The notes: generated from the sequence alone by a model not told the origin. A DNA stretch of 64,000 nt from Tsuneonella sp. CC-YZS046 (GCF_035581365.1 NZ_CP141590.1:1054001-1118000); one strand, 5' to 3'; counted from the first letter of the stretch, positions 7,611 to 56,785 are shown. Made by a program: numbers and translations.

Positions 7611-8023
7611 TCTCGATCAAGGCCATCGACCATGTCGTGTTCCGCGCGAGAAACATGGAAGCGATGGTTCGTTTCTATGAAGATGTTCTGGGCGCCCGGA
7701 TCGAGCGTCAGGTCGAGGAGCTTGGCCTTGTGCAGCTTCGGGCCGGTGGTTGCCTGATCGATCTGGTCGATTGCGCCGGCAGGCTGGGGCAACGGGGCGG
7801 AGCGCCGCCAGGTGTAGAGGGGCGCAATATCGAACACGTATGCTTCCGGCTCGACCCGTGGAACGGAGAGGCTATACTTGCCTTTTTGGCTACGCATGGC
7901 ATTCCGGAGGCAGAAATCGCGCAACGTTATGGCGCGGAAGGCTACGGTCCCAGCATCTACCTTGCCGACCCGGAAGGCAACGTACTGGAGTTGAAGGGAC
8001 CATCCAGGGAATTGGATTCTTGA
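7607..8023 (+). CDS. Glyoxalase/VOC family protein
   Basis: A 138-residue single-domain vicinal-oxygen-chelate protein. I chose the GTG at 7607, which overlaps the pgk stop (GTGA) and directly precedes the family's opening strand ([25 protein letters not shown]). An earlier ATG lies inside pgk and would add unrelated residues. Two beta-alpha-beta-beta-beta modules are visible, with candidate metal ligands in AIDHVVF, NIEHVCF and the final GNVLELKG. The family includes glyoxalases, dioxygenases and resistance proteins, and the substrate cannot be deduced. Methylglyoxal disposal would fit the glycolytic neighbourhood but is only a guess. Confidence 0.85.
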
Positions 8024-8134
8024 GGCAGAACGCCGTGGCCCGTCACGAGGGCTTAACGGATATGGTTGACTGTGTTGCGGCAGCCTGCGCCGCTGGCTAA
8101 GGCGCGCAAGACATACAGAAGGCAGGAAGGCACG

Positions 8135-9037
8135 ATGACTCATCAGGACATGTTGGCAAAGATTTCCAATGGGAACGGTTTTATCGCGGCTCTGGATCAG
8201 AGCGGCGGCTCTACTCCCAAGGCGCTGCGTGGATATGGGATCGAGGAAACCGCCTATTCCAATGACGAGGAAATGTTTGGTCTGATCCACCAGATGCGCA
8301 GCCGGATCATCACCTCGCCCGCTTTCACGGGCGACAAGGTGATCGGCGCGATCCTGTTCGAGAAGACCATGGATGGCGCTGTCGATGGAAAGCCCACTCC
8401 GCAGGCGCTGATCGAACGCGGTGTCGTGCCGTTCATCAAGATCGACAAGGGTCTGGAAGACGAGGCGAACGGCGTTCAGTTGATGAAGCCGATGCCCGAA
8501 CTCGACGCTCTGCTTACCCGCGCAAAGGCGCTTGGCGTGTTCGGTACCAAGGAGCGTTCGGTCATCAACTCGGCCAATCGCGAAGGCATTGCCGCTGTCG
8601 TCAAGCAACAGTTCGAGGTGGGCGCGCAGGTGACGGCCCACGGCCTGATGCCGATTCTCGAGCCGGAAGTGAACATCAAGAGCGAGACCCGCGCCGAGTG
8701 CGACCAGATCCTGCTCGAGGAAATCCTCAACAATCTCGATGCCTTGCCGGATGGACAGCAAGTGATGTTGAAGCTGAGCCTGCCGGTCAAGCCGGGCCTG
8801 TTCGATCCTTTGGTGGATCATCCGAAGGTGCTGCGCGTGGTTGCCCTTTCCGGCGGCTACAAGCGGCCCGAGGCCTGCGTGGAGCTTTCCCGGAACCGGG
8901 GCGTGATCGCTAGCTTCAGCCGCGCGCTGCTGGAAGATCTGCGTGCCCAGATGAGCGACGAGGAATTCGACGCCTCGCTGGCCGGTGCGATCGACGAAAT
9001 CTACAAGGCTTCGGTGGCGGCTCCGGCCGACGCCTGA
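8135..9037 (+). CDS. fda: Fructose-bisphosphate aldolase class I
   Basis: A Schiff-base aldolase that splits fructose-1,6-bisphosphate. The 300 residues, counted from the ATG at 8135 with an AGGAAGG site seven bases upstream, match the bacterial class I enzymes of about 300 residues. Visible landmarks are GFIAALDQSGGSTPKAL at residues 14-30, FIKIDKGLED, and LKLSLPVKPGLF. The 111 bases before it hold no gene but contain a hairpin (GGCAGC/GCTGGC), so it may have its own promoter besides read-through from pgk. Confidence 0.93.
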   Translation: MTHQDMLAKISNGNGFIAALDQSGGSTPKALRGYGIEETAYSNDEEMFGLIHQMRSRIITSPAFTGDKVIGAILFEKTMDGAVDGKPTPQALIERGVVPFIKIDKGLEDEANGVQLMKPMPELDALLTRAKALGVFGTKERSVINSANREGIAAVVKQQFEVGAQVTAHGLMPILEPEVNIKSETRAECDQILLEEILNNLDALPDGQQVMLKLSLPVKPGLFDPLVDHPKVLRVVALSGGYKRPEACVELSRNRGVIASFSRALLEDLRAQMSDEEFDASLAGAIDEIYKASVAAPADA

Positions 9038-9040
9038 TCT

Positions 9041-9454
9041 CTAAATTCCTCCCGCAAAACGAAATCCGAAGCGATAGTCTTCCGGAGATATGCTCCGGTC
9101 GGCCTTCGCTTCGGGATATACTTCCACCAGATCGAGCGCCCCGTCGGCGACCGTTATCGGCTCGCCCAGCGTGAGTTCTCGCGTTTCGCTCCGCGATCCG
9201 AGATCGATACGCACCTCTATGCGTATCCGCCCGGCCCAGACGCATTGCACCTTGGCCGGACATCGGCTGTCTTCCAGCAGCTTTAGCGGCGTGACCCGTG
9301 GCCCATCGACATAGACTGTTTCACCCAGTCCCGCTCTGGCAATGCCGTCCTGCCTGACCTTGTAGCTCACGCATCCAGCCATGAGCGGGATGGTCAACAA
9401 CAGGAACATGCTTGCGGGCAAAGCCCGCCGTTTCGACAAAGTGACAATAGCCAT
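9041..9454 (-). CDS. Lipoprotein of unknown function
   Basis: A 137-residue protein started at the ATG at 9452-9454. The longer frame would place 27 extra residues before an otherwise normal signal peptide. A lipoprotein signal (LLLTIPLMAGC) gives Cys28 as the lipid anchor. The mature part carries VQCVWAGRIRIEVRIDLGSRSETRELTLGEP, a segment seen in a group of small sphingomonad lipoproteins, and ends in DYRFGFRFAGGI. Two cysteines (RCPAKVQC) could form a disulfide. Function unknown. It converges with the aldolase gene with three bases between stops. Confidence 0.75.
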   Translation of the reverse strand: MAIVTLSKRRALPASMFLLLTIPLMAGCVSYKVRQDGIARAGLGETVYVDGPRVTPLKLLEDSRCPAKVQCVWAGRIRIEVRIDLGSRSETRELTLGEPITVADGALDLVEVYPEAKADRSISPEDYRFGFRFAGGI

Positions 9455-9533
9455 CGCTCCATCATGCCCGATGATCGGCGCCTGCTCCAGAGCGGACTTG
9501 GCGGCCTGGCAAAGGCAGGATAGGGCAAAGTCC

Positions 9534-10157
9534 ATGCAGACTTGCCAACTTTATCTGATTTCTCCGCTGGAAGTGGGCGGCCCTTTTCCTGAACGGCTGG
9601 AGCGTGCGCTCCAGGCTGGCGCGGCGGCTGCCTTCCAGTTTCGCGTCAAGGGGCTGGACGAGCACGAAGCGGCCCGGCTCGCAGGCCCGCTGCAGGAAAT
9701 CTGCGCTGCGCATGATGTCGCATTCATCGTGAATGACAGCGTATCATTGACCCGCCGGATCAAGGCAGATGGAGTTCATCTCGGCCAGCAGGACGGCGAC
9801 GTGCGCGAAGCCCGCGAGTTGCTGGGCCGGGATGTGCAGATCGGCGTCACCTGCCATGCCAGCCGTCATCTGGCGATGGAAGCAGGGGAAGCCGGGGCCG
9901 ATTATGTTGCGTTCGGGGCGTTCTTCCCCAGTGTCACCAAGGAAACGAAGCACAAGGCGGAACCGGAGCTGTTGCGCTGGTGGCAGGATCTGTTCGAATT
10001 GCCCTGCGTCGCCATCGGCGGAATAACGCTCGGCAACTGCCGGCCCTTGATCGAGGCGGGAGCGGATTTCCTGGCGGTTTCAGCAGCCGTGTGGAGCGGC
10101 GATGAAGCGGAGGCGATGCGCGGATTTACCGAATTGTTGGGAGAGCGGAAGCATTAG
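9534..10157 (+). CDS. thiE: Thiamine-phosphate synthase
   Basis: ThiE joins the hydroxymethylpyrimidine and thiazole phosphates to make thiamine phosphate. The 207 residues form a TIM barrel with the expected motifs: [70 protein letters not shown] and the phosphate-binding CVAIGGI. The ATG at 9534 follows a GGCAGGATAGGG stretch; an upstream in-frame ATG would overlap the divergent lipoprotein gene. No TPP riboswitch is seen upstream. Confidence 0.9.
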
Positions 10158-10228
10158 CTGCCTTGCTCTCGCTACGGGCAGGCGCTAGGGGCGCGCAACC
10201 GCTTCCCTGTTTCTCGAAAGTATGGCCC

Positions 10229-10792
10229 ATGAAGATCAGTGGCGTTGACATTCGCCCCGGTAATATCCTCGAATATGAAGGCGGAATCTGGAAGGTTGCC
10301 AAGACCCAGCATACCCAGCCCGGAAAGGGCGGGGCGTTCATGCAGGTCGAGATGAAGAACCTGATCGATGGGCGCAAGACCAACGTCCGCTTCCGCAGCG
10401 CCGATACCGTCGAGCGCGTCCGGCTGGATACGAAGGATTTTCAGTACCTCTATGCCGAGGGCGATAATCTCGTGTTCATGGACAAGGAGACATACGACCA
10501 AATCCAGCTTCCCGCGGACCTTCTCGGCGATGCCGCCGCGTTTCTGCAGGATGGGATGGATGTCACACTGGAACTTTATGACGAGAGGCCGATCAGTGTT
10601 GAACTGCCCGAACAGGTCGAGGCGACCATCGTAGAGGCGGATGCTGTGGTGAAAGGCCAGACAGCCAGTTCCAGCTATAAGCCTGCGGTGCTTGATAATG
10701 GCGTTCGCGTGATGGTTCCCCCGCATATCGAAAGTGGCACCCGGATCGTGGTCGACGTTTATGCCCGCGAATATGTACGAAAGGCTGATTGA
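10229..10792 (+). CDS. efp: Elongation factor P
   Basis: EF-P enters stalled ribosomes and helps form peptide bonds at polyproline stretches. The 187 residues have the three beta-barrel domains; the tip loop in domain I reads QPGKGGAF with Lys33 at the position that is modified in many bacteria. The C-terminal [30 protein letters not shown] is typical. The ATG at 10229 starts the conserved [12 protein letters not shown]. It is followed almost without gap by an exported protein gene. Confidence 0.96.
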
Positions 10793-10794
10793 TT

Positions 10795-11235
10795 ATGCGT
10801 ACCTTCTCGATCGTCGCTACGCTTGCCGTCCTCGCGATTCCGCTCGCGCTCCATGCCGCAGAGCCGGCCAAGAATTCCAAGGAGGCGGCCAAGGCGCCGG
10901 CTCCCGCACAGACTGCACTCACGCCTGAACAGCAGAAGGCGAATGTGGAGCGCGGCGTCAAGATTTTGAGCCTCTTCAGCAGCGCCCTGCAGAACAAGGA
11001 AGTGCCGGAAGACCAGAAAGGCTATCTGTTCTCCTGCCTCTACAACAACAAGCTGGAGAACATCAGCGTCGCGACTGGCGAGGTTTTCACGAAGAATCCG
11101 AAGCTCGACGCGAATGATCCGAAGAACCTCTATCAGGCTGCTGCCACGATCTGCGGAGTGACCAAGGCTCCCTCGTTCGCCAAGGCGGAAAAGCCGGCTA
11201 CTTCGGCGACTCCCGCTCCCGCCAAGGGCCGCTGA
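10795..11235 (+). CDS. Exported protein of unknown function, downstream of efp
   Basis: A 146-residue protein with a Sec signal peptide (residues 1-22, ending LALHAA). An Ala/Lys/Pro-rich linker follows, then a folded middle (QKANVERGVKILSLFSSALQNKEVPEDQKGYLFSCLYNNKLENISVATGEVF), then another Ala/Pro-rich tail. The ATG at 10795 is two codons after the efp stop. Two cysteines in the middle part could form a disulfide. No family is recognised. Position suggests cotranscription with efp, but a functional link is not shown. Confidence 0.7.
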   Translation: MRTFSIVATLAVLAIPLALHAAEPAKNSKEAAKAPAPAQTALTPEQQKANVERGVKILSLFSSALQNKEVPEDQKGYLFSCLYNNKLENISVATGEVFTKNPKLDANDPKNLYQAAATICGVTKAPSFAKAEKPATSATPAPAKGR

Positions 11236-11287
11236 TCGCGTGAACTTGTATCGGGCGGCAACTGCATCGCGTAGGCTTGTAAATTAA

Positions 11288-12106
11288 ATGGCCGTTTCAG
11301 GACTTTTACGCGTGATGGAGCGCGCCGCCCGCCGTGCGGGCAGCCGATTGCGTCGGGACTTCGGAGAGGTCGAGCATCTGCAGGTCAGCCGAAAGGGGCC
11401 GGCGGATTTTGTGTCCAAGGCTGATCGGGCCGCCGAGCGCAGCCTATATGATGACCTCAAACAGGCCCGTCCCGATTGGGGTTTCCTGCTTGAGGAAAGC
11501 GGTGAGGTGGAAGGTGATCCGGGCAAGCCGCGTTGGATCATCGATCCACTCGACGGCACCAGCAATTTTCTCCACGGAATCCCGCATTTCGCCATCTCCA
11601 TCGCGGTTCAGGAGCCGAAGCTCGATGGCAGCGGTTGGGGGGAAGTTACGGCGGGGCTGGTCTACCAGCCGATTACTGACGAGAGTTTCTGGGCGGAAAA
11701 GTCGCGCGGTGCATGGCTGCAGGACGCCCGCCTGCGCGTGTCCGGGCGGCGCCATCTCGATGAAGCCCTGATCGCCACGGGCATCCCTTTCGCCGGTGCC
11801 GGCGATGTGGGCGAATGGAGCCGGATTTATCAGGCCATCGGGCCGCGCGTGGCCGGAATCCGCCGTTTCGGCTCCGCCGCGCTCGATCTCGCCTGGGTTG
11901 CCGCGGGCCGGTATGAGGCTTTCTGGGAAAGCAACCTCCAGCCCTGGGATACGGCGGCGGGTTGCCTGCTGGTGAGGGAAGCGGGCGGTTTTGTGACCGA
12001 TTGGCGAGGGCGGTCCCAGGCGATCTGCGATAGTCAGGTGCTGGCTGGAAATGATCCGCTTCATTCCCGTCTCCACAAATTATTGGTCGAAGCTCTCAAG
12101 GATTGA
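11288..12106 (+). CDS. suhB: Inositol monophosphatase family protein
   Basis: A Mg-dependent phosphatase of the SuhB/IMPase superfamily, 272 residues, as expected. The metal-binding motif reads IDPLDGTSNFLHGIPHFAIS (about residues 79-98), the first acidic ligand lies in LLEESGEV, and the C-terminal metal site is SNLQPWDTAAGCLLVREAGG. In bacteria such proteins act on inositol phosphates and, as SuhB, in rRNA transcription complexes. The ribosome-binding site is weak. It follows the exported protein by 52 bases. Confidence 0.92.
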   Translation: MAVSGLLRVMERAARRAGSRLRRDFGEVEHLQVSRKGPADFVSKADRAAERSLYDDLKQARPDWGFLLEESGEVEGDPGKPRWIIDPLDGTSNFLHGIPHFAISIAVQEPKLDGSGWGEVTAGLVYQPITDESFWAEKSRGAWLQDARLRVSGRRHLDEALIATGIPFAGAGDVGEWSRIYQAIGPRVAGIRRFGSAALDLAWVAAGRYEAFWESNLQPWDTAAGCLLVREAGGFVTDWRGRSQAICDSQVLAGNDPLHSRLHKLLVEALKD

Positions 12107-12171
12107 GGGCAAATTCCCTGATGCGGCTTGAAGGAGCCATGCGAGGCCGCTAGACGGCGGCAACCTCCGAA

Positions 12172-12256
12172 GCCCCTGTGGCGGAATTGGTAGACGCGCT
12201 CGACTCAAAATCGAGTTTCTTCGGAAGTGCCCGTTCGAGTCGGGCCAGGGGCACCA
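12172..12256 (+). tRNA. tRNA-Leu (anticodon CAA)
   Basis: Eighty-five bases with encoded CCA. The acceptor arms GCCCCTG (12172-12178) and CAGGGGC (12246-12252) pair perfectly. The anticodon stem CTCGA/TCGAG encloses CTCAAAA, giving anticodon CAA, which reads UUG. A long variable arm is present, as expected for a class II tRNA, and the discriminator is A. A long open frame that begins inside this tRNA is not a real start for the next gene. Confidence 0.96.
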
Positions 12257-12420
12257 GGCGGAAACGAAGCGGCCTTTACAGGAAAGCCGTTCATCCCCGC
12301 TGTTTTGCGTCCAAAACTCACCCCAGGATAGCGAACGGTTTCCCGTTCGATTGGAAGTGCTGGTTTTCGCCCTTTGTCGACGCCATTATCATCTCTCATC
12401 CGCAGGGAAGGGCATCGGAT

Positions 12421-14277
12421 TTGGCGTCGCAGGGGGAAGAGACGGAGCGCGCAAAAGCGCCGCTGATCCTGGTCGAACCGGAAACGGCATTCTGGCTGGC
12501 AGGTTCCATCCTTGGACTCATGCAATCGAGCGTGATTTGCGTCGTATCGCTTCAATCTCCGGCCGATCTGGAAATCGACCCGATCAAGGCCGCAATGACC
12601 CAACTGGTGCCTCATGCGCGATTGATGCCTCCGGATTCGGAGGCATCCCTGGAGGAGAATCTCTTGCAATGCGTCCATGCCTGGCAGGCGGCGGTCCAGC
12701 GGGATCGCAGCGTGCCGGTATTCGGCCCCTGCAGCATTTCGAGAATGAACGGCGGAGCCGAGGGAGCGACAAAAGTACGCTTTCGTTTTGCCGTTCCATC
12801 AGACCATCTGGAAGCGACCAGAATGGCGCTCGCCTGGACGATCATGGCGGTCAATCGCCTGGCCGCCGGCGTTGGCAATCTGGATGGCACATTAAGCGAG
12901 TTGGGCAATTCGCTCGCAGCAATGCAGAACAGTCTGATGCCTTACGCCATGAAAGGAACCAATGGTTTCCGCTTCATGGAAGCCGCCATGGAACTGGGCA
13001 TTCCGTATCATACCGTTGTCCATGATATGATAGCCTATGGCCAGGGCAAGAATTCCATTCGCCTGTTCAGCACTATCAGCGAACATACCACATGGATGGG
13101 TGGGATCTTTTCCAAGGACAAATATCTGACGGCTCAGGTCCTGCGCCGGTTCGGCTTGCCGGCGCCCAATCATCGGCTCGTATCCGATGAGGAAGCTGCG
13201 GTCGAAGCTGCGGCGGCTCTAGGTTATCCCGTGGTGGTCAAGCCAACCGATCAGGAACAGGGAGTCGGAGTTTTTCCATCCATAAGGACGGAAGAAGCGC
13301 TGCGCGCGCGTTATGCCGATGCCAGAAAGATATCGAAATTGATCCTCGTCGAACAGCACGTCGCAGGCGAGGATTTCCGTATCACCGTGATGAATGGCGA
13401 AGTCATAAAGATCATGAGGCGGCGTCCGGGCGGTGTGACGGGGGATGGAAAAAGGTCTGTCGCCCTATTGCTCGAGGATGTGCGGAAAGCATCGGAGAAA
13501 GAGTCCGGGCGCTCGTGGAAGAACCGTGTTTCCCTGAAGCTGGATGATGAAGCGCTCGCCATCCTGCACGAAGATGGATGCTCTCCCGACACTATTCCGG
13601 AAGAGGGCGTGTTCGTTCCCCTGCGCCGGAAGGCCAATGTGTCGGCGGGCGGTTTCCATGAACTGATCCCGTTCGATCAGGTTCATTCCGATAATCTGCG
13701 CATGGCTGTGCGGGTTGCCGAGATCCTGCAGCTCGATTTTGCGGGTGTCGATTTATTGATTCCGGATATTTCGAAATCGTGGCGCGAAAGCCATGCCATT
13801 ATCTGCGAGGTCAATGCGCAGCCCCAGATCGGCTATCGTGACACCCCCGAGATATTCAAGGAGATCCTGCGCAAGCTGATGCCCGGCAAGGCCACAATTC
13901 CTTTGCATCTCATCATACTTGAGAATGAGAAAGTGCCGAAATTCAATGCCGCCCGAATGGCGGCTAAGCTGGGCTGTAATGGATTGGCATTCCGCAATCG
14001 CAGCTGGATCGACGGTTTCGGCTGGTCCAGACCATTCGACAATGATCTCGCTGCGGCCAGGTCACTGCTTATCGACAAATCCTTGACCGGCGCGTTGATC
14101 GTGACAAGCGATGAGGAATTGAAGCGGCATGGCCTCGCGTCCGCGCATTTCGATACGATAAAAATTCTATTGGAATCCGCCGATACAAGCCAGGCTTTGA
14201 GCGGTTTGATCCGCCTCACCTATGATCTGGTCACTCCTCACTCTCGGCATGTGCAGATCGTTCGCCCTCCGGCCTGA
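12421..14277 (+). CDS. CphA2-like ATP-grasp amino-acid ligase with decayed Mur domain
   Basis: About 618 residues from a TTG at 12421, preceded by AGGGAAGGG; the open frame runs back into the tRNA and the first ATG is only at 12520, so the start is uncertain. An N-terminal cyanophycin-synthetase-like domain is followed by an ATP-grasp domain near residues 228-480 (FSKDKYLTAQVLRRFGLPAPN, YPVVVKPTDQEQGVGVFP, and the metal-binding ICEVNAQPQIG). The last 130 residues align by eye with the Mur-ligase half of CphA (ALIVTSDEELKRHGLASAHFD corresponds to the ETARGGILREGL region). The P-loop is gone: LENEKVPK stands where GTNGKTTT should be. Cyanobacterial CphA2, which joins beta-Asp-Arg dipeptides, is likewise shortened. 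Substrate here unknown. Confidence 0.75.
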   Translation: MASQGEETERAKAPLILVEPETAFWLAGSILGLMQSSVICVVSLQSPADLEIDPIKAAMTQLVPHARLMPPDSEASLEENLLQCVHAWQAAVQRDRSVPVFGPCSISRMNGGAEGATKVRFRFAVPSDHLEATRMALAWTIMAVNRLAAGVGNLDGTLSELGNSLAAMQNSLMPYAMKGTNGFRFMEAAMELGIPYHTVVHDMIAYGQGKNSIRLFSTISEHTTWMGGIFSKDKYLTAQVLRRFGLPAPNHRLVSDEEAAVEAAAALGYPVVVKPTDQEQGVGVFPSIRTEEALRARYADARKISKLILVEQHVAGEDFRITVMNGEVIKIMRRRPGGVTGDGKRSVALLLEDVRKASEKESGRSWKNRVSLKLDDEALAILHEDGCSPDTIPEEGVFVPLRRKANVSAGGFHELIPFDQVHSDNLRMAVRVAEILQLDFAGVDLLIPDISKSWRESHAIICEVNAQPQIGYRDTPEIFKEILRKLMPGKATIPLHLIILENEKVPKFNAARMAAKLGCNGLAFRNRSWIDGFGWSRPFDNDLAAARSLLIDKSLTGALIVTSDEELKRHGLASAHFDTIKILLESADTSQALSGLIRLTYDLVTPHSRHVQIVRPPA

Positions 14278-49774: not shown

Positions 49775-50545
49775 ATGATCGGAGAATTGTCTCAATTCTC
49801 CCAAGAACGAAAAAATAAAATGGGTCGCCAAACTGACATCGGGGCCGGGCAAGAAACCGGTCAGGCGTGTTTTGGGGTAACCATAATGGCAGGGGCACTG
49901 AGAGGAAGCGAGTTCGAGGAACATGCTTGGCTGAGGCATTCCTCGGATATGGATAGCGGACAGGAATTGCTGTTCGATTTCAGCGAGCATCCCGAACAGG
50001 GATTTGAGCGCGCGCTGGATTGCTGGTCCAGGCTCGATGGCAAGGGGCGCCTGATTCTCCAGAGAGACGGCCGGTTGATCGCGTGCAGCGGTCTTGCCCG
50101 GCGGATTATCGATGACCGGGATTGCCTGCGCCTGGAGCATGGCTTCGTCGTCCCGGTCGACAGCCGCTATCGCGCCAGCTTCGACAAGCTGCTCATGGTG
50201 AACGCGCAGGGTGTGGAAACCTTGCTGCATCCCTGCCTGCGAACGGGCGGGCACTGGATATTCCGGGCGACCGCGTCGGAAGACCGGCAGGTGTTCGTCA
50301 CCCTGCAGCAAGCCGCGCCGGATCATCATGCGAAACTTGTCGATCTCCGCGAGGCCTTCGGGCTTACCCGCAGCGAGGCGGAGGTCGCCGATGCCTTGTA
50401 TAATGGTCTTTCCGCGCACGATGTGGCCGACAAGCTGGACATTTCGATCCACACGGTGAGGGCGCATCTCCGCCGGTGCTACGACAAGATGCATATAAAT
50501 TCCCGCGAGCAATTCTGGCATCGCGTAAGCGCCTACCAGCTCTAG
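49775..50545 (+). CDS. LuxR-type (GerE helix-turn-helix) regulator next to the Fap-like operon
   Basis: 256 residues from the ATG at 49775; later ATGs at 49820 and 49886 are possible. The C-terminal 60 residues form a LuxR/GerE DNA-binding domain (FGLTRSEAEVADALYNGLSAHDVADKLDISIHTVRAHLRRCYDKM). The N-terminal part (residues 50-185) has a PAS-like character (FDFSEHPEQGFERALDCWSRLDGKGRLILQRDGRLIACSGLARRII) but no recognised ligand motif and no receiver domain. It is 427 bases upstream of the amyloid-type operon on the same strand and is the natural candidate for its regulator; this is inferred from position only. Confidence 0.82.
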   Translation: MIGELSQFSQERKNKMGRQTDIGAGQETGQACFGVTIMAGALRGSEFEEHAWLRHSSDMDSGQELLFDFSEHPEQGFERALDCWSRLDGKGRLILQRDGRLIACSGLARRIIDDRDCLRLEHGFVVPVDSRYRASFDKLLMVNAQGVETLLHPCLRTGGHWIFRATASEDRQVFVTLQQAAPDHHAKLVDLREAFGLTRSEAEVADALYNGLSAHDVADKLDISIHTVRAHLRRCYDKMHINSREQFWHRVSAYQL

Positions 50546-50972
50546 GCGGACCGCGAAGACAGCCGCTTCTCCCTGTATGGAGCGGCCAGCGCTTCATCGG
50601 CAGTCGGCGGGAAATCGCCGGACTTGCCGGACTTTCCTTCGGTTCCTGTCGCAAATGGCAAACGCGAAGCGGCGGTCGGCATTGCCTGCGCCGTTTCTGC
50701 GGCCATGCGCATACCGACTAATCAAAATTGACTAGTGGATGCCATCTAATCATCATACCTTAGATGAAATTACCTAATATAGATAATATATACTTCGATG
50801 ATTAGGTTTTTATGGCGATGAAATAGAAAACGAATCGCCTTAACATCTCATTAACTAAATAAATCTTGGGTGAGGATTCTTCCTCATACTCTCTAATTGC
50901 GCGAACATTGGAGCATATCCGCTTCAGTGAACCAGACGACTTGTGCGTATGGATATTGGGTTGGGGATGGCG
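50546..50972. other. AT-rich control region before the Fap-like operon
   Basis: No gene. The stretch 50715-50890 is markedly AT-rich compared with the rest of the window. It contains the inverted repeats ATCTAA(N10)TTAGAT at 50744-50765, CTAATCAT/ATGATTAG at 50746-50753 and 50798-50805, CCTAAT/ATTAGG ending in TTTTT (50773-50811), and GGCGAT/ATCGCC (near 50814-50840). These could be operators, a weak terminator for the LuxR gene, or both. No sigma-54 type -24/-12 promoter is seen. Confidence 0.5.
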
Positions 50973-51455
50973 ATGAACAAGCAATCTCGTCAATATACCA
51001 ATTCTGTGGTCGGCATTGTCATTACATTGCTGATTACTGCGCTGGTTCCGGCAGGCGCAACGGCATCCCAGCCGGGCGACAATCTACCCTCGGGCAGCTT
51101 CATCACATTGCGGCAAGTGCCGACCCGCGCCGCGGAACTGCCCGCGCCGCCCGCGCCCCCCAATTATGTCGTGATGGGCGGCCGGGATGAAGTGGTTTCC
51201 GCGGTCGATCTGGGCCTGACGCCCCTGACCGATTCAGAGCAATCGGCGGTGCTGGCGCGCACCACGCCGATGTATCAGCAATTCTCCCAGGCCACCACGC
51301 AAGGCCTCGATGTCATGGCCAGCCAGCATGGGATGGACTCCCGGTCCATCGCGCAGGAACAGGCAGGCGGCGCCGGGGGAGTCATTCGCGACAATATGGG
51401 AGCATTGCCTTCGGCGCTGGGCGTCATGCGCGATGTCCTGGGAGGCGACAAGTGA
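50973..51455 (+). CDS. Exported protein in the fapA position, family unknown
   Basis: 160 residues from the ATG at 50973 (GGGG eight bases upstream; ATGs at 50949 and 50967 are alternatives). A hydrophobic signal segment (SVVGIVITLLITALVPAGATA) is followed by a Pro/Ala-rich stretch (RAAELPAPPAPPN, residues 52-64) and a helical part ending LGVMRDVLGGDK. No cysteine. No family is recognised. In Pseudomonas the first gene of the fap operon is the about 150-residue chaperone-like FapA, so position, length and export agree, though the sequence itself gives no proof. Its stop overlaps the next start (GTGA). Confidence 0.7.
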   Translation: MNKQSRQYTNSVVGIVITLLITALVPAGATASQPGDNLPSGSFITLRQVPTRAAELPAPPAPPNYVVMGGRDEVVSAVDLGLTPLTDSEQSAVLARTTPMYQQFSQATTQGLDVMASQHGMDSRSIAQEQAGGAGGVIRDNMGALPSALGVMRDVLGGDK

Positions 51456-52042
51456 ACCGCGCGGCGTCATGCCTTCTCGCCGGGCTGGCGCTGATCGCTC
51501 CCGCTGTCGCGATCGCCCAGGTTCAGGATGAGATCGTGATACCGGGCGACGGCAACGCAGGCGCGAACGGACGGATTGCGGTGAATGCGGCGGCGGGCAA
51601 CAGCAACCAGCAGGTCAACGCGGCAGTGGCCACGCTGGGCGATATTTCCTCCGGATTGGAGCGGGTCCACCAGAGAATGGCGGGATCGGGCAGCAGCGAC
51701 CGTTCCACGCGGATCGTGCTGGAAGGAAATGCTTTCGCGGAGTCCAGCGGCCTTGTCGGCATCAATGCCGCCGCTGGAACTCAGAACCAGCTGGCGAATG
51801 TCGCCGTCTTATCAATTGGCAGAATTGGGGCGATTTCGGATGAACTGCTCGAGCAGTCCCGCGCCTCTACCGAACCGAGCGGGTCTACTGGGGGCACTGG
51901 GGACCGGAACGATGCAATTGCCGTCGGCAAGGACGCGTTCCGGGACAGTAGCGGCCTAGTCCAGGTCAACCTGATCGGTGGCGAGAGGAACTCCTCCGCC
52001 AACACCTTCGTGCTGAATGTCTTGGCCGGGGGCACACCGTAA
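51452..52042 (+). CDS. fapB: FapB-like minor amyloid subunit or nucleator
   Basis: 196 residues from GTG at 51452, with GGAGG seven bases upstream. The signal peptide ends at AIA (residue 22). Three imperfect repeats follow: residues 38-63 (RIAVNAAAGNSNQQVNAAVATLG), 99-123 (LVGINAAAGTQNQLANVAVLSIG) and 167-192 (LVQVNLIGGERNSSANTFVLNVL), sharing hydrophobic-x-V/I-N-x-x-x-G-x-x-N-x-x-x-N. This is the repeat type of FapB/FapC functional amyloids. The mature protein has no cysteine. It is the shorter of the two repeat proteins and comes first, as FapB does. Confidence 0.75.
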   Translation: MNRAASCLLAGLALIAPAVAIAQVQDEIVIPGDGNAGANGRIAVNAAAGNSNQQVNAAVATLGDISSGLERVHQRMAGSGSSDRSTRIVLEGNAFAESSGLVGINAAAGTQNQLANVAVLSIGRIGAISDELLEQSRASTEPSGSTGGTGDRNDAIAVGKDAFRDSSGLVQVNLIGGERNSSANTFVLNVLAGGTP

Positions 52043-52063
52043 CCGCTACCAAGGAGAAATGAA

Positions 52064-53101
52064 ATGAAAGGCATGTTACTCGCTGCAGCCGCGGTTTCCG
52101 CGCTTGTAGTGTCATCTCCCGCGCTGGCCGATCGCCGGGGCGGAGATCCTCTCGACATTGAAATCGATTATGAAAACAAGATCGACACCAAGGTCGAAAC
52201 CGATGTTTCCTACACCAAGGAAGTAGCGCTGGAAGGCACCGTTACCCTCGCGGGAGCGATCAATGTCGACAGCTCGGCCGTGGCCGTCAATGACGTCAAG
52301 CAGCTTTCCGGCATCAATGCGGTGACCTATCGCGAAGAGAACGAACTCAATGCCGAAAATGGCTGGGTCGATGAAGTGTTCGGACAGGGCGTCAGTGAAG
52401 CCGGTCAGGATCCGAATGACGAACTGACGGATGGCGTCGTGCAGCCGCAGATTCGCGCAGGTTTCTTTGCGCCGATCATCAACAACGTTGCCACCTTCGA
52501 TATCAGCGGCTCCGGCAATATCGGGGTCAACCTGGCAGCGGGCTATCTCAACATGCAGTTGAACTCCGCGGTGCTTGCATCTTCGGAAGTCAACAATGCA
52601 GAAGCGGCCGGTGGCTGGGCGGAAGCTTCCACTACCTCGCTCCAGGCACTTGCAGGTGTGGGGCAGTTTGCCACTCCCGGCGAGATTCTCAATGAAGATG
52701 AGCAGGAGATTGGCGGTGGTGGAAACAACTTCCGCGACCGTAACACTGTCCAGGGCGGCGCGATCAGCGGTGACGGCAATATCGGCGTCAACGTTGCGGC
52801 GGGCAGCCTCAACCAGCAGGCCAACCTGATGACCCTGGCGGTGGCGACGGATGCGGCGCTGGCGGAAGCCAATGCCGGACTGATCCAGCTTGCCCTGTTC
52901 AACGGTGTCGAACAGCAGGACAGCATCAATCTGGTTGGGGCGGCTACCATTGCCAATGCTTCCGGCAATATCGGCCTGAACATGGCAGCCGGTGTCGGCA
53001 ACCAGCAGCTGAACTCGCTCACCATGGCGGCATCCTCGGTCGGCAGCACCGACGGGGGCGGCAATGGCGGCGGTGGCGGGGGCGGCACCGATCCAAGCTA
53101 A
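52064..53101 (+). CDS. fapC: FapC-like major amyloid subunit
   Basis: 345 residues, ATG at 52064 after AAGGAG. The signal peptide ends SPALA (residue 22). Three repeats with near-identical cores begin at residues 151, 238 and 301: SGNIGVNLAAGYLNMQLNSA, DGNIGVNVAAGSLNQQANLM and SGNIGLNMAAGVGNQQLNSL; the DNA GGCAATATCGG opens each. The linkers are of unequal length (about 87 and 63 residues apart) and acidic. The C-terminus is a glycine-rich tail. It has no cysteine at all, unlike Pseudomonas FapC, which I recall as carrying a C-terminal CxxC. Expected to be secreted and to form the fibre. Confidence 0.8.
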   Translation: MKGMLLAAAAVSALVVSSPALADRRGGDPLDIEIDYENKIDTKVETDVSYTKEVALEGTVTLAGAINVDSSAVAVNDVKQLSGINAVTYREENELNAENGWVDEVFGQGVSEAGQDPNDELTDGVVQPQIRAGFFAPIINNVATFDISGSGNIGVNLAAGYLNMQLNSAVLASSEVNNAEAAGGWAEASTTSLQALAGVGQFATPGEILNEDEQEIGGGGNNFRDRNTVQGGAISGDGNIGVNVAAGSLNQQANLMTLAVATDAALAEANAGLIQLALFNGVEQQDSINLVGAATIANASGNIGLNMAAGVGNQQLNSLTMAASSVGSTDGGGNGGGGGGGTDPS

Positions 53102-53114
53102 GCCTCGCGCATAG

Positions 53115-53144
53115 GAAGGAGAGGAGCTTCGGTTCCTCCCCTTC
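53115..53144 (+). promoter_or_regulatory. UUCG-capped hairpin between fapC and fapD
   Basis: GAAGGAGAGGA (53115-53125) pairs at 10 of 11 positions with TCCTCCCCTTC (53134-53144), closed by G-C-UUCG-G-U. No T-run follows. Such stable intercistronic hairpins often protect the upstream mRNA or lower expression downstream, which would suit a major subunit followed by assembly proteins. Confidence 0.6.
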
Positions 53145-53187
53145 TCATCCGCATTCCATTCAATTCCTCTCACGGGAGCGAACGCAG

Positions 53188-53937
53188 GTGCGCCCAAGGC
53201 TGAATCATACCCGACGCGGATCTTCTGGGAGACTCTGGGCCGCGATTGCCTTGATGGCTGGGACGCAGCTCGCAGGATGCGTCAGCGCTCCGCCGACTGA
53301 CGTGCCGATCTGGCTGGGTCAGGTCGGAATGGGCGCACCTGTCGTTACCCGGCCCGTCCAGAGCTGGAAGGATCTCAAATTCGCGGGCATCGTCCGCCAG
53401 AGGAGCGATTTCAGCTGCGGCGCCGCGGTGCTTGCGACCATCTTCAACGAGGCCTTCGGCCACGGCACCACCGAGCATCAGGTTCTGGTGAACATGCTCA
53501 AGGTCGCGGACCCGGACCTCGTGCGGGAGAAGGGCTTCTCCCTGCTGGACATGAAGACCTATGTGCAGCTGGTCGGCATGTCGGGCGAGGGTTACCGGCT
53601 CGATTACGATATGCTCCGGCAACTCAACCTGCCGGTGATCGCCCTGATAAACATCAAGGGCTACAAGCATTTCGTGGTGATCCGGAAGACATTCCCGGAT
53701 CATGTCGCGATCGGCGATCCGGCGCTGGGCAACCGGATCATGGAACGGCGCGCCTTCGAGGTCGCATGGAACCAGGTCGCCTTCGTCATCACCGGCGACG
53801 GCTACGATCCGGCCAATGCGCTGATCGACCCGCCCGAGCCGCTTTCCGCGAGCCGCCTGCTGAAGCAGCACGCGGTGATTCCCGGCGCGGAAACGGCCGA
53901 ATTCGGCTTCGGGCCGAAATATCAGTTCAGTTTTTAG
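53188..53937 (+). CDS. fapD: FapD-like C39-family cysteine protease
   Basis: 249 residues from GTG at 53188 with GGGAG upstream. A lipoprotein signal (TQLAGC, Cys31) should anchor it in the periplasm. The papain-like triad is visible: Gln71 and Cys77 in RQRSDFSCGAAVLATIF, His161 in GYKHFVVI, and Asp177 in AIGDPALGNRIM. This is the C39-like peptidase that defines FapD, which is needed for fibre export in Pseudomonas. The cleavage target is not known. Confidence 0.85.
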   Translation: MRPRLNHTRRGSSGRLWAAIALMAGTQLAGCVSAPPTDVPIWLGQVGMGAPVVTRPVQSWKDLKFAGIVRQRSDFSCGAAVLATIFNEAFGHGTTEHQVLVNMLKVADPDLVREKGFSLLDMKTYVQLVGMSGEGYRLDYDMLRQLNLPVIALINIKGYKHFVVIRKTFPDHVAIGDPALGNRIMERRAFEVAWNQVAFVITGDGYDPANALIDPPEPLSASRLLKQHAVIPGAETAEFGFGPKYQFSF

Positions 53938-53947
53938 GAGCAGGACA

Positions 53948-54823
53948 ATGGCCATGGCCAGCATTCGGACAGTCGTTCTGGTAAGCCTCGAAGCGATTGC
54001 GCTCGGCTTCGCCACGCCTGCGCTGGCTGCATCGCCGGATGCCGTCGCTCCCGCCGATGCCCGGAAGCCGGGCGCGGCTCAACCGGATATTCTCGCGGCG
54101 CTGGGCGCGCCTCTTGCCGACGACGAGTTGGGAGAGATGCGCGGCAAGTTCGTCAGCCCCGACGCGGTAAGCTATTTCGGCATTTCCCTGGTGACGAGCT
54201 GGCAGGACGAAGCCGGCGTCACCACCATTGCCAATCTGGCCTTCAACATAGATTTCCTGCCCGGAATGTCGGGTGCCGGCAGCGTTCCCCGGCTGATGGT
54301 GGGATGGGTCAGGGAAAATGGCGATCCCGACATGGATGTGCCTGGCATTCCGGCCGGTTATGTCGCGGTCACGCCCGATCCGGGCCAGATGGTGGCCATC
54401 GGCGCGCTCGATACGCTGACCGGGGCGGGGCAGGTCAATGTCGTCGCCGGGGCGGACAACAGCACCCGCAACACCATGCATATCGCGGTGGTGCCCCGCA
54501 GTGCGGTGCCGCAATTGCCGACCGCCGGACTGCAACCGATCTCCGGTTCGACCGCGATACGGTTCGAGGATGGCGACGGCGTGCAATTCCGGCTCGCCAA
54601 CAACGAGATCGGCCTGGCGCTGACCAGCGGCAACGGCCTGGACAGCAGCTTTCAGAGCCTTGGCGGGAATTTCAGCCAGTTCATCCAGCAGATCACGATC
54701 CAGAGCAATGGCAATGACGTGCTGAACAGCGCGTCGATCGTGCTCGGCATCGACCCGCTCCAGAGCTTCGACCGCATACGAACGGAGGGGGCTCGGCTGA
54801 GCATGAAAGGATTCGGCTTCTAG
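53948..54823 (+). CDS. fapE: FapE-like exported protein carrying an amyloid-type repeat
   Basis: 291 residues, ATG at 53948 after AGGAG. The signal peptide ends TPALA (residue 27). A segment DDELGEMRGKFVSPDAVSYFGISLVTSW (58-85) resembles the opening of FapE-type proteins. Residues 158-183 (GAGQVNVVAGADNSTRNTMHIAVV) match the fibre repeat pattern seen in the two preceding proteins, so it may join the fibre as a minor part or cap. The region NNEIGLALTSGNG and the FSQFIQQITIQSNGNDVLNSASIVLGI stretch add further beta-rich character. No catalytic motif. Confidence 0.7.
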   Translation: MAMASIRTVVLVSLEAIALGFATPALAASPDAVAPADARKPGAAQPDILAALGAPLADDELGEMRGKFVSPDAVSYFGISLVTSWQDEAGVTTIANLAFNIDFLPGMSGAGSVPRLMVGWVRENGDPDMDVPGIPAGYVAVTPDPGQMVAIGALDTLTGAGQVNVVAGADNSTRNTMHIAVVPRSAVPQLPTAGLQPISGSTAIRFEDGDGVQFRLANNEIGLALTSGNGLDSSFQSLGGNFSQFIQQITIQSNGNDVLNSASIVLGIDPLQSFDRIRTEGARLSMKGFGF

Positions 54824-54840
54824 CCTGAAAAGGGGGGAAC

Positions 54841-55437
54841 ATGCAGTTTGGAAGGATGGCCAGGGCGATGGCCCTTGCGGGCCTGGCGTCGGCGGCTCCG
54901 GCCCATGCCGAAGACGCGAACAAGCAGTTCGCGGTCGAGGGCGGGGGCAGGGCAAGCTGCCAGACATTCCTCAACGCCCGCAAGGATCAGGCTTCGGCGG
55001 AATACAGGCAGCTGATCGGCTTCGTGCAAGGCTATCAGACCGCGGCGAACCGCTATGAGCCGAACACATTCGACCTGTCGCCCTGGCATAATGAAGCCGC
55101 ATTCGGGCTGATCCTCGAAAAGCACTGCACGGAATACCCCAGGGAAACCCTGATCGGGGCGCTGCAGAAGCTGACCATCAGCTTCCGTCCCATTCGTATC
55201 GCCCAGTTTTCCCGGCTCCTCGAAGTGGGAGACGGCAAGAACAAGGCTTTCGTCTACGAAGCCATCCTCAAGCGTTCCCAGGCATTCCTGAGAGTGCGCG
55301 GGCTCTACAACGGCCCCGAGGACGGAGCCTATTCTCCGGCCCTGCGCGATGCATTCAAGCGCTTCCAGGAACAGCAGAAATTGCCGGCCACCGGCGTGCC
55401 GGACCCAGCCACATTGTGGACGCTACTCAATCCGTGA
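54841..55437 (+). CDS. Exported peptidoglycan-binding protein with Rap1a-like N-domain
   Basis: 198 residues, ATG at 54841 after GGGGGG. A signal peptide ends PAHAE. Residues 38-110 resemble the small Cys-paired Rap1a/HdeA-like proteins (C40 in SCQTFLNARK, YRQLIGFVQGYQTAAN, C96 in EKHCTEYPRETL), probably one disulfide. Residues 145-198 are a PG_binding_1 domain (LRVRGLYNGPEDGAYSPALRDAFKRFQEQQKLPATG). This gene has no counterpart in the Pseudomonas fap operon. It lies between fapE and fapF with 17 and 22 base gaps, so it is part of the operon and could anchor the export apparatus to the wall. Confidence 0.75.
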   Translation: MQFGRMARAMALAGLASAAPAHAEDANKQFAVEGGGRASCQTFLNARKDQASAEYRQLIGFVQGYQTAANRYEPNTFDLSPWHNEAAFGLILEKHCTEYPRETLIGALQKLTISFRPIRIAQFSRLLEVGDGKNKAFVYEAILKRSQAFLRVRGLYNGPEDGAYSPALRDAFKRFQEQQKLPATGVPDPATLWTLLNP

Positions 55438-55459
55438 AGCCAAGAAGGGGGAGAATATC

Positions 55460-56785
55460 ATGAGCTTGAGCAACCGGAAGCATCTGGCTTCGATAGGAGC
55501 GTCGCTGATGCTCTTCATCAGCCAGCCGGCATGGGCGCAAGCCGTGCCTGACGACATCGGAGCCTTGCAGCGGCAGGTGGAAGACCTGCAGCAACGCGAA
55601 GCGGCGGCAGTGCAGCGGGTAAACGAGCTGGAGGCCCGGCTCGAGCGGCTTGAACGATCCCGTATCAGCGATCTCGACGCCGCCGAACTGAGGGGCAAGT
55701 ATGCCTATCCGACCGCGCGTGCCTGGGCCGATGAGCCGTCTCTGGCCTTCTTCCAGAGGGAGGATGTGCCGGAGACGGGCAGGGGCCAGGGCATTTCCTC
55801 CGATAGCGCGGAGGAGGAGCGCAAGGCGCCCGCGCCGACGGAAGCCGTGACGGAACTCACCCAGCAGCGGCAGGGCCGTTTTGGCGATCGCATCGGCATC
55901 GAGCTTGGAGCGAGCTATACCCATTTCGACAATGCCCGTCTCAATCTCACCGGCTTTCTGGCGCTGGATTCCATCTTCCTCGGCAGGATCAGCATCGATC
56001 AGGTCACGGCGGATATTTTCTCTTTCGATCCCGTGCTGCGAATGGGGCTGAGCAACCGGCTCTTCCTGGATGCCAACCTCTCCTATCTCTATCGGACTTC
56101 CAACTTCCAGTCGGGCGGGGCCGGCGCCGACGCGAGCGGGCTGATCGAAAGGAGAGTGAAGGATCACGGCATCGGCGATCTCAACATCGGGGCCAGCTAT
56201 CGCTTGTTCCGGGAAACAAACGGGCGCCCCGACATTGTCATCAACACCCGCGTCAAGGCCCCCACCGGAAAGCATCCATACGGTGTGGAACTGATCGAAG
56301 TCGCCGGCAGCGAAGGCAATCTCACGGTGCCGGAGCGGCTTTCGACAGGCAGCGGCGTCTGGGGCGCCTCGATCGGCGTGTCGGCGCTGAAGACGCTCGA
56401 TCCGATGGTGGTCTTCGGCAGCGTCACCTATTTTCACAACTTCAAGCGCAACTTTGGCGACATCGACGAGGCTCCGGGCGAGCAGCCGGGCCGCGTGTCG
56501 GTGGGCAATGCGATCCAGATCGGGGCGGGCATGGCCTATGCCCTGAACGACCGTTCGAGCATCAGCATGTCCTATACCCAGCGCCTGGTCCAGCGCACCA
56601 AGGTCGGTCGGGAAGGGCAGGACATGCAGAGGATTGTCGGAAGCCAGGCCAATGTGGGGCTGGTCAATCTCGGCGCGACATTCTCCCTGAGTAATCGGCT
56701 GTCATTGATCACCAATGTGGGGATCGGACTGACCGATGATAGCCCGGATATGGCGGTAAGCATCAGGTTGCCTTACCGTTTCTGA
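55460..56785 (+). CDS. fapF: FapF-like outer-membrane export pore with N-terminal coiled coil
   Basis: 441 residues, ATG at 55460 after GGGGGAG. The signal peptide ends AWA (residue 26). Residues 31-69 form a coiled coil (DIGALQRQVEDLQQREAAAVQRVNELEARLERLER), then LRGKYAYP, then a beta-barrel with alternating strands to the terminal phenylalanine (IRLPYRF), the usual signal for outer-membrane insertion. A coiled-coil plug plus barrel of about 430 residues is the known layout of FapF, which secretes fibre subunits. It closes the operon. Confidence 0.82.
   Translation: MSLSNRKHLASIGASLMLFISQPAWAQAVPDDIGALQRQVEDLQQREAAAVQRVNELEARLERLERSRISDLDAAELRGKYAYPTARAWADEPSLAFFQREDVPETGRGQGISSDSAEEERKAPAPTEAVTELTQQRQGRFGDRIGIELGASYTHFDNARLNLTGFLALDSIFLGRISIDQVTADIFSFDPVLRMGLSNRLFLDANLSYLYRTSNFQSGGAGADASGLIERRVKDHGIGDLNIGASYRLFRETNGRPDIVINTRVKAPTGKHPYGVELIEVAGSEGNLTVPERLSTGSGVWGASIGVSALKTLDPMVVFGSVTYFHNFKRNFGDIDEAPGEQPGRVSVGNAIQIGAGMAYALNDRSSISMSYTQRLVQRTKVGREGQDMQRIVGSQANVGLVNLGATFSLSNRLSLITNVGIGLTDDSPDMAVSIRLPYRF

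Follow-up and report, generated by a model that had tools for sequence, protein, structure and literature searches.

The seven open reading frames (ORFs) that follow one another head to tail on the plus strand at positions 50973-56785 of the window, i.e. the whole 64-kb stretch of Tsuneonella sp. CC-YZS046 DNA analysed here, very probably constitute an operon of the sphingomonad lineage that serves the export and assembly of Fap functional amyloid, the amyloid being predicted from the encoded sequences. The gene order is read as FapA-B-C-D-E-X-F, so that the fapABCDEF order is kept with one gene inserted. This gene, X, is a fixed seventh gene of which we found no description in the openly licensed literature. 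The sequence-only reading of this DNA had rightly counted seven consecutive genes, but named only six proteins; the unnamed one is the ORF at 54841-55437 between fapE and fapF, and the extra gene it had proposed is indeed conserved at this position across sphingomonad loci. The intergenic spacings are, in order, -4, 21, 86, 10, 17 and 22 bp (a negative value denoting an overlap), and this close spacing makes a single transcript for all seven ORFs probable. Scans for intrinsic terminators and sigma-70 promoters yielded no signal above that of shuffled sequence.

Fap identity of the encoded proteins

The profile search against Fap models that had been proposed as a check was carried out with the NCBIfam profiles, and B, C, D, E and F each matched their own model. 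FapB (51452-52042), the minor fibre subunit or nucleator, matched NF058557 (5.1e-24), FapC (52064-53101), the major fibre subunit, matched NF058558 (6e-17), the C39 cysteine protease FapD (53188-53937) matched NF058616 (2.6e-64), FapE (53948-54823) matched NF058559 over residues 56-265 (9.8e-20), and FapF (55460-56785), the outer-membrane export barrel with a periplasmic coiled coil, matched NF058560 (3.5e-110, 368 bits). None of the operon's proteins reached the NCBIfam equivalog cut-offs. For FapF this cut-off (700 bits) was passed in just 7 of the 398 genomes of a phylum-wide sample, all belonging to the Pseudomonas-type family f187, indicating that it delimits that subgroup and not the Fap system; beta- and gammaproteobacterial FapF proteins outside Pseudomonas-type genomes score 343-402 bits, an interval that includes the protein studied here.

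Residues 125-441 of FapF match the FapF crystal structure 5o65 by sequence (6.6e-80), and the protein consists of a coiled coil and a barrel related to the 12-strand FapF structure, with Phe as C-terminal residue, as the sequence-only reading had described it. FapC matches FapC fibre structures by sequence (7.9e-11). Structure prediction of this fibre subunit also came out in favour of Fap and against the refuting outcome that the sequence-only reading had set out, fibre 9u4u being the sole PDB match below 0.001 (1.1e-6) to a model with pLDDT values mostly of 70-90 over the repeats and low elsewhere, and with confidence varying widely among five models. Fap fibre subunits are characterised by three imperfect repeats of the type GN-x-G-x-N-x2-AG-x2-N-x-Q-x-N. 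The NIGVN-type repeats typical of FapC occur exactly three times in FapB (residues 42, 102 and 170) and exactly three times in FapC (residues 153, 240 and 303); shuffled FapB and FapC gave at least one motif match in 24 and 51 per 20,000 trials, respectively (0.1-0.3%). Across 19 FapC sequences, N, G, A and Q at the core of the repeats are invariant in all three copies. The Cys/His/Asp triad of FapD is complete (C77, H161, D177) and accompanied by Q71. Curlin repeats (PF07012) were not found in the genome, with an E. coli positive control being detected.

The gene at the A position (50973-51455) showed no direct match to the FapA model in profile searches. An HMM built from its sphingomonad orthologues, however, matches the A-position gene in 4 beta- and gammaproteobacterial fap operons (29-45 bits), and the orthologue in locus L112 matches the FapA model NF058617 (1.5e-5). 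The most fitting reading of the first gene is that it encodes a strongly diverged FapA, a proposed periplasmic chaperone of FapB and FapC, linked to the family only through its relatives. A FapA homologue is often missing from genuine Fap systems. Taken as a whole, the earlier assignment stands for B to F by profiles, structures and order, and for A by way of these linking hits only.

The operon shares with Pseudomonas fapABCDEF the gene order, three-repeat FapB and FapC proteins, a C39-type FapD, FapE, a FapF made of coiled coil and barrel, and a gene at the FapA position. It differs in that X lies between E and F, FapD is a predicted lipoprotein, the FapF linker carries a FapE-like motif, a LuxR gene with its own palindrome adjoins the operon, and all proteins stay below the Pseudomonas-tuned cut-offs; moreover, FapC has a long N-terminal region and no cysteine, whereas two of the three FapC proteins examined from family f187 end in CxxC.

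The supposition that an alphaproteobacterial Fap system would be new or little described did not hold. It goes back to a 2013 survey that confined Fap to beta-, gamma- and deltaproteobacteria (PMC3792158), but a 2018 review lists Fap in Erythrobacter, Porphyrobacter and Novosphingobium (PMC6173800), and a 2025 update reports it across many Pseudomonadota families with more than 90% canonical synteny (PMC12822426). The Fap systems of these three genera, which belong to the same bacterial order and almost certainly to the same operon family, are known from survey presence only, and we found no description of their gene X, regulator or motifs. Surveys used models of FapA, B/C, D, E and F only (PMC12392863), so that an inserted seventh gene would escape notice.

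Gene X and its distribution

In X (54841-55437, plus strand) a signal peptide and an N-terminal helical domain, which contains the invariant cysteines C40 and C96, are combined with a C-terminal peptidoglycan-binding domain (PG_binding_1, 2e-12; 47.5 bits against a Pfam gathering score of 23), a family matched by 24/24 X orthologues. In a fold search with the predicted model (pLDDT 84) the peptidoglycan-binding part matched SltB3 (Z 10.1), and residues 31-118 matched YmgD (Z 8.0 over 81 residues), HdeA (Z 6.9 over 76) and the chaperone 2myj (Z 5.5), values that can arise by chance in helical folds, making the HdeA reading tentative. Pfam HdeA was found in 9 of the 24 orthologues, weakly (best 0.0038), and a sequence search against the PDB matched the peptidoglycan-binding half alone, again weakly. 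X would share the fold of its N-terminal domain, including a conserved cysteine pair, with HdeA, HdeB and YmgD (Z 5.5-8.0) while differing from them by the added peptidoglycan-binding domain and by marginal sequence similarity.

The FapF type of this operon occurs in 15 of 398 genomes of the family (at least 480 bits), and X lies between fapE and fapF in all 15. A genome-wide search by conserved peptide patterns, which may miss remote members, located 26 X loci in GTDB species genomes. Of these, 23 are sphingomonad fap operons and one is a fap operon in the MAG of a distant alphaproteobacterium (L129); the other two are relatives with no fap genes in their vicinity (L128:8983-9591 and L130:8836-9504, in Sedimenticola and Primorskyibacter), and no FapF matches were found in the genomes bearing them. 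Gene order is kept in the 24 fap loci carrying X, so that the neighbourhood survey in Sphingomonadales suggested beforehand revealed conservation of both order and X. Cultured carriers of the operon include Erythrobacter longus and Allopontixanthobacter sediminis. X was present in all alphaproteobacterial fap operons that were examined and in 0/11 beta- and gammaproteobacterial ones, in one of which a PAS-GGDEF (diguanylate cyclase-like) gene occupies the position between fapE and fapF (L094:6963-7889). Another variant layout was observed at L098:2237-11767 (genome G554), where tandem fapBCDE modules provide two sets of B, C, D and E next to a single fapF.

The most economical role for X, which we propose tentatively from its modelled fold, would be that of a wall-tethered periplasmic holdase. 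The resemblance of its C-terminal domain to that of wall enzymes such as SltB3 and SleB, together with the relatives in Sedimenticola and Primorskyibacter, could also be explained by a cell-wall or envelope-stress protein that is merely co-transcribed, acting for example in peptidoglycan repair or thinning at FapF trimer assembly. We regard this as less likely, as X lacks a catalytic domain, is single-copy in the source genome, and occupies the place between fapE and fapF in all sphingomonad fap operons examined as well as in the distant alphaproteobacterium.

In a FapF tree the sphingomonad Fap proteins form one clade (100/99), and horizontal gain of the operon from Pseudomonas was rejected since this supported clade is not nested in the beta/gamma proteins, although the deep branching is not settled by the tree.

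The adjoining LuxR-type gene and its candidate operator

The LuxR gene noted upstream of the operon by the sequence-only reading is present on the plus strand at 49775-50545 (R; GerE domain, 2.8e-11) and is a proposed operon activator. Its association with fap is conserved: in 16 of the 17 main-clade loci with enough flank, fapA is directly preceded by an R orthologue in the same orientation. Parasphingorhabdus flavimaris has a different ORF at this position, Crp-like by eye, and the E. longus group is devoid of R.

The candidate operator TAATCAAAATTGACTA at 50719-50734 agrees with the palindrome TAGTCA-N4-TGACTA at 11 of 12 positions. At a threshold of at least 10/12, 13 of the 17 R-bearing loci, the window among them, contain the palindrome, four R-bearing loci lack it, and it was detected in 0/4 loci without R; of the 19 such sites counted over 374 kb of loci, 16 fall no more than 260 bp 5' of fapA, counts to be read in the light of the palindrome having been derived from the same loci and of related loci not being independent. 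Two observations are less biased: loci without R have no such site, and across the 3.35-Mb genome 50719-50734 is the only site to match with one mismatch or none. Among 14 other fap-bearing genomes a site with at most one mismatch lies beside fap in four (G133, G878, G074, G849), and scattered sites elsewhere occur at about the rate of a reversed-pattern control. The palindrome is often doubled with a 14-bp spacing (L108:4870/4884, L116:1162/1176, L121:4803/4817, G133:C1:2411724/2411738), as if two dimers sat side by side. We found no prior description of R and the palindrome beside fap in the openly licensed literature.

R and the palindrome might be unrelated to fap, with control being exerted by another route such as CtrA, given that a CtrA-type TTAA-N7-TTAA box (TTAACATCTCATTAA, 50840-50854) lies 133 bp 5' of fapA and is the only one in the 64 kb. 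This appears improbable, as the palindrome tracks R and is unique in the genome and the box is missing from 21 other fap loci, for which reason it was discarded as a conserved control element.

The Fap protease, a related C39 system and a proposed mechanism

FapD carries a predicted lipoprotein signal (LAGC31), and a lipobox-like Cys is found in 24/24 sphingomonad FapD proteins, 46-47 residues ahead of the catalytic Cys. This Cys is missing from FapD of the L129 MAG and from most beta- and gammaproteobacterial FapD proteins, two being ambiguous. Sphingomonad FapD is thus predicted to be a lipoprotein, a feature of which no earlier description was found in the openly licensed literature.

FapE contains the C39-leader-like motif ADDELGEMRGKF. 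Motifs of this xDxELxxMRG[KR][FY] type occur in FapE of the sphingomonad operons and of 9/11 beta- and gammaproteobacterial ones, and resemble C39 leader sequences. A matrix derived from the sphingomonad FapE motifs, run unguided on the other Fap proteins, put its top-scoring site into the linker directly after the coiled coil for about 20 of 24 FapF proteins, corresponding to SDLDAAELRGKY at residues 70-81 of the FapF in the window. The mean best score was 7.0 for FapF and averaged -5 to -1 for the other Fap proteins; shuffled FapF gave a mean of -0.5 with a 95th percentile of 7.1, so that single FapF scores, which vary, lie in many cases within the shuffle tail and it is the repeated position that constitutes the evidence. 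No RG motif was seen in the linkers of beta- and gammaproteobacterial FapF in the alignment, and the openly licensed literature yielded no earlier description of a motif shared by FapE and FapF.

In Pseudomonas, FapC is no longer secreted when FapD carries the C38A change. The N-terminus of FapE and the linker of FapF appear to be processed there, mass spectrometry having given no peptides for the mature FapE N-terminus or the FapF linker; the substrate of the essential protease was called unresolved (PMC5557850). These gaps, the shared motif and the leader of a second C39 system described below together suggest that FapD probably cuts FapE and perhaps, in sphingomonads, also FapF.

This second system, a C39 protease with a FapF-like barrel (L060-L070 and L101-L104, e.g. 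L062:7305-9206 and L066:8205-11050), is more common, being present in 39/398 Sphingomonadaceae genomes and also in other Pseudomonadota, and is close to the putative pilus system FilB/FilC of NCBIfam (NF050078/NF050079). Both resemble Fap in combining a C39 protease with a FapF-like barrel, but an intact three-repeat FapB/FapC pair is absent from the loci examined. In the second system the double-glycine leader LSDxELxxxRGG[FY] (also seen as ...ELxxxRGG[FYI]) is located on a small E'-like protein, the neighbours are unlike FapB and FapC, gene order and strands vary, and the barrels form a separate FapF branch, sphingomonad and beta/gamma Fap grouping together against them (100/99). In a bridging locus, L063 (genome G061, 7685-13362), one weak FapB-like and two weak FapC-like genes accompany a C39 gene, a small protein with an RGGY leader and a FapF-like barrel on a long branch; upstream of them lies a regulator that looks Crp-like by eye. 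That the operon in the window is itself derived from Fap and secretes a non-amyloid surface layer, akin to this second system and in line with the abundance of C39-barrel pairs with unrelated neighbours in Sphingomonadaceae, is very unlikely, as its FapB and FapC repeats are intact with invariant amyloid core positions, its FapC model matches a FapC fibre and its FapF groups with true Fap.

For the Fap operon we propose the following sequence of events. R would bind TAGTCA-N4-TGACTA upstream of fapA and activate the operon, and FapA-F and X would cross the inner membrane via Sec. FapC and the nucleator FapB would be kept unfolded in the periplasm by FapA and probably also by X, whose HdeA/YmgD-like domain may act as holdase while its C-terminal domain fixes it to peptidoglycan below the FapF pore. 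Lipoprotein-anchored FapD would cleave FapE after the leader-like motif; it may also cleave FapF where this motif recurs, between coiled coil and barrel, and so switch the pore from one state to another, a step consistent with the mass-spectrometry hints from Pseudomonas. FapB, FapC and FapE would then exit by way of the FapF trimer, with the three repeats of each subunit stacking as a cross-beta fibre. That all of this holds at once, i.e. that sphingomonad Fap is a seven-component machine with an obligatory wall-bound HdeA-like chaperone, activated by FapD cutting FapE and FapF at one C39-type motif and controlled by a dedicated LuxR protein and operator, is a speculative proposal that we would not expect to be correct in every part.

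The motif in FapE and the sphingomonad FapF linker marks candidate cut sites for the Fap protease, and R with its candidate operator may offer a handle to switch on amyloid in phototrophic as well as biofilm-forming sphingomonads. Judging by the fixed seventh gene, Fap systems of one branch may include an additional periplasmic chaperone or wall anchor, invisible to the standard Fap models.
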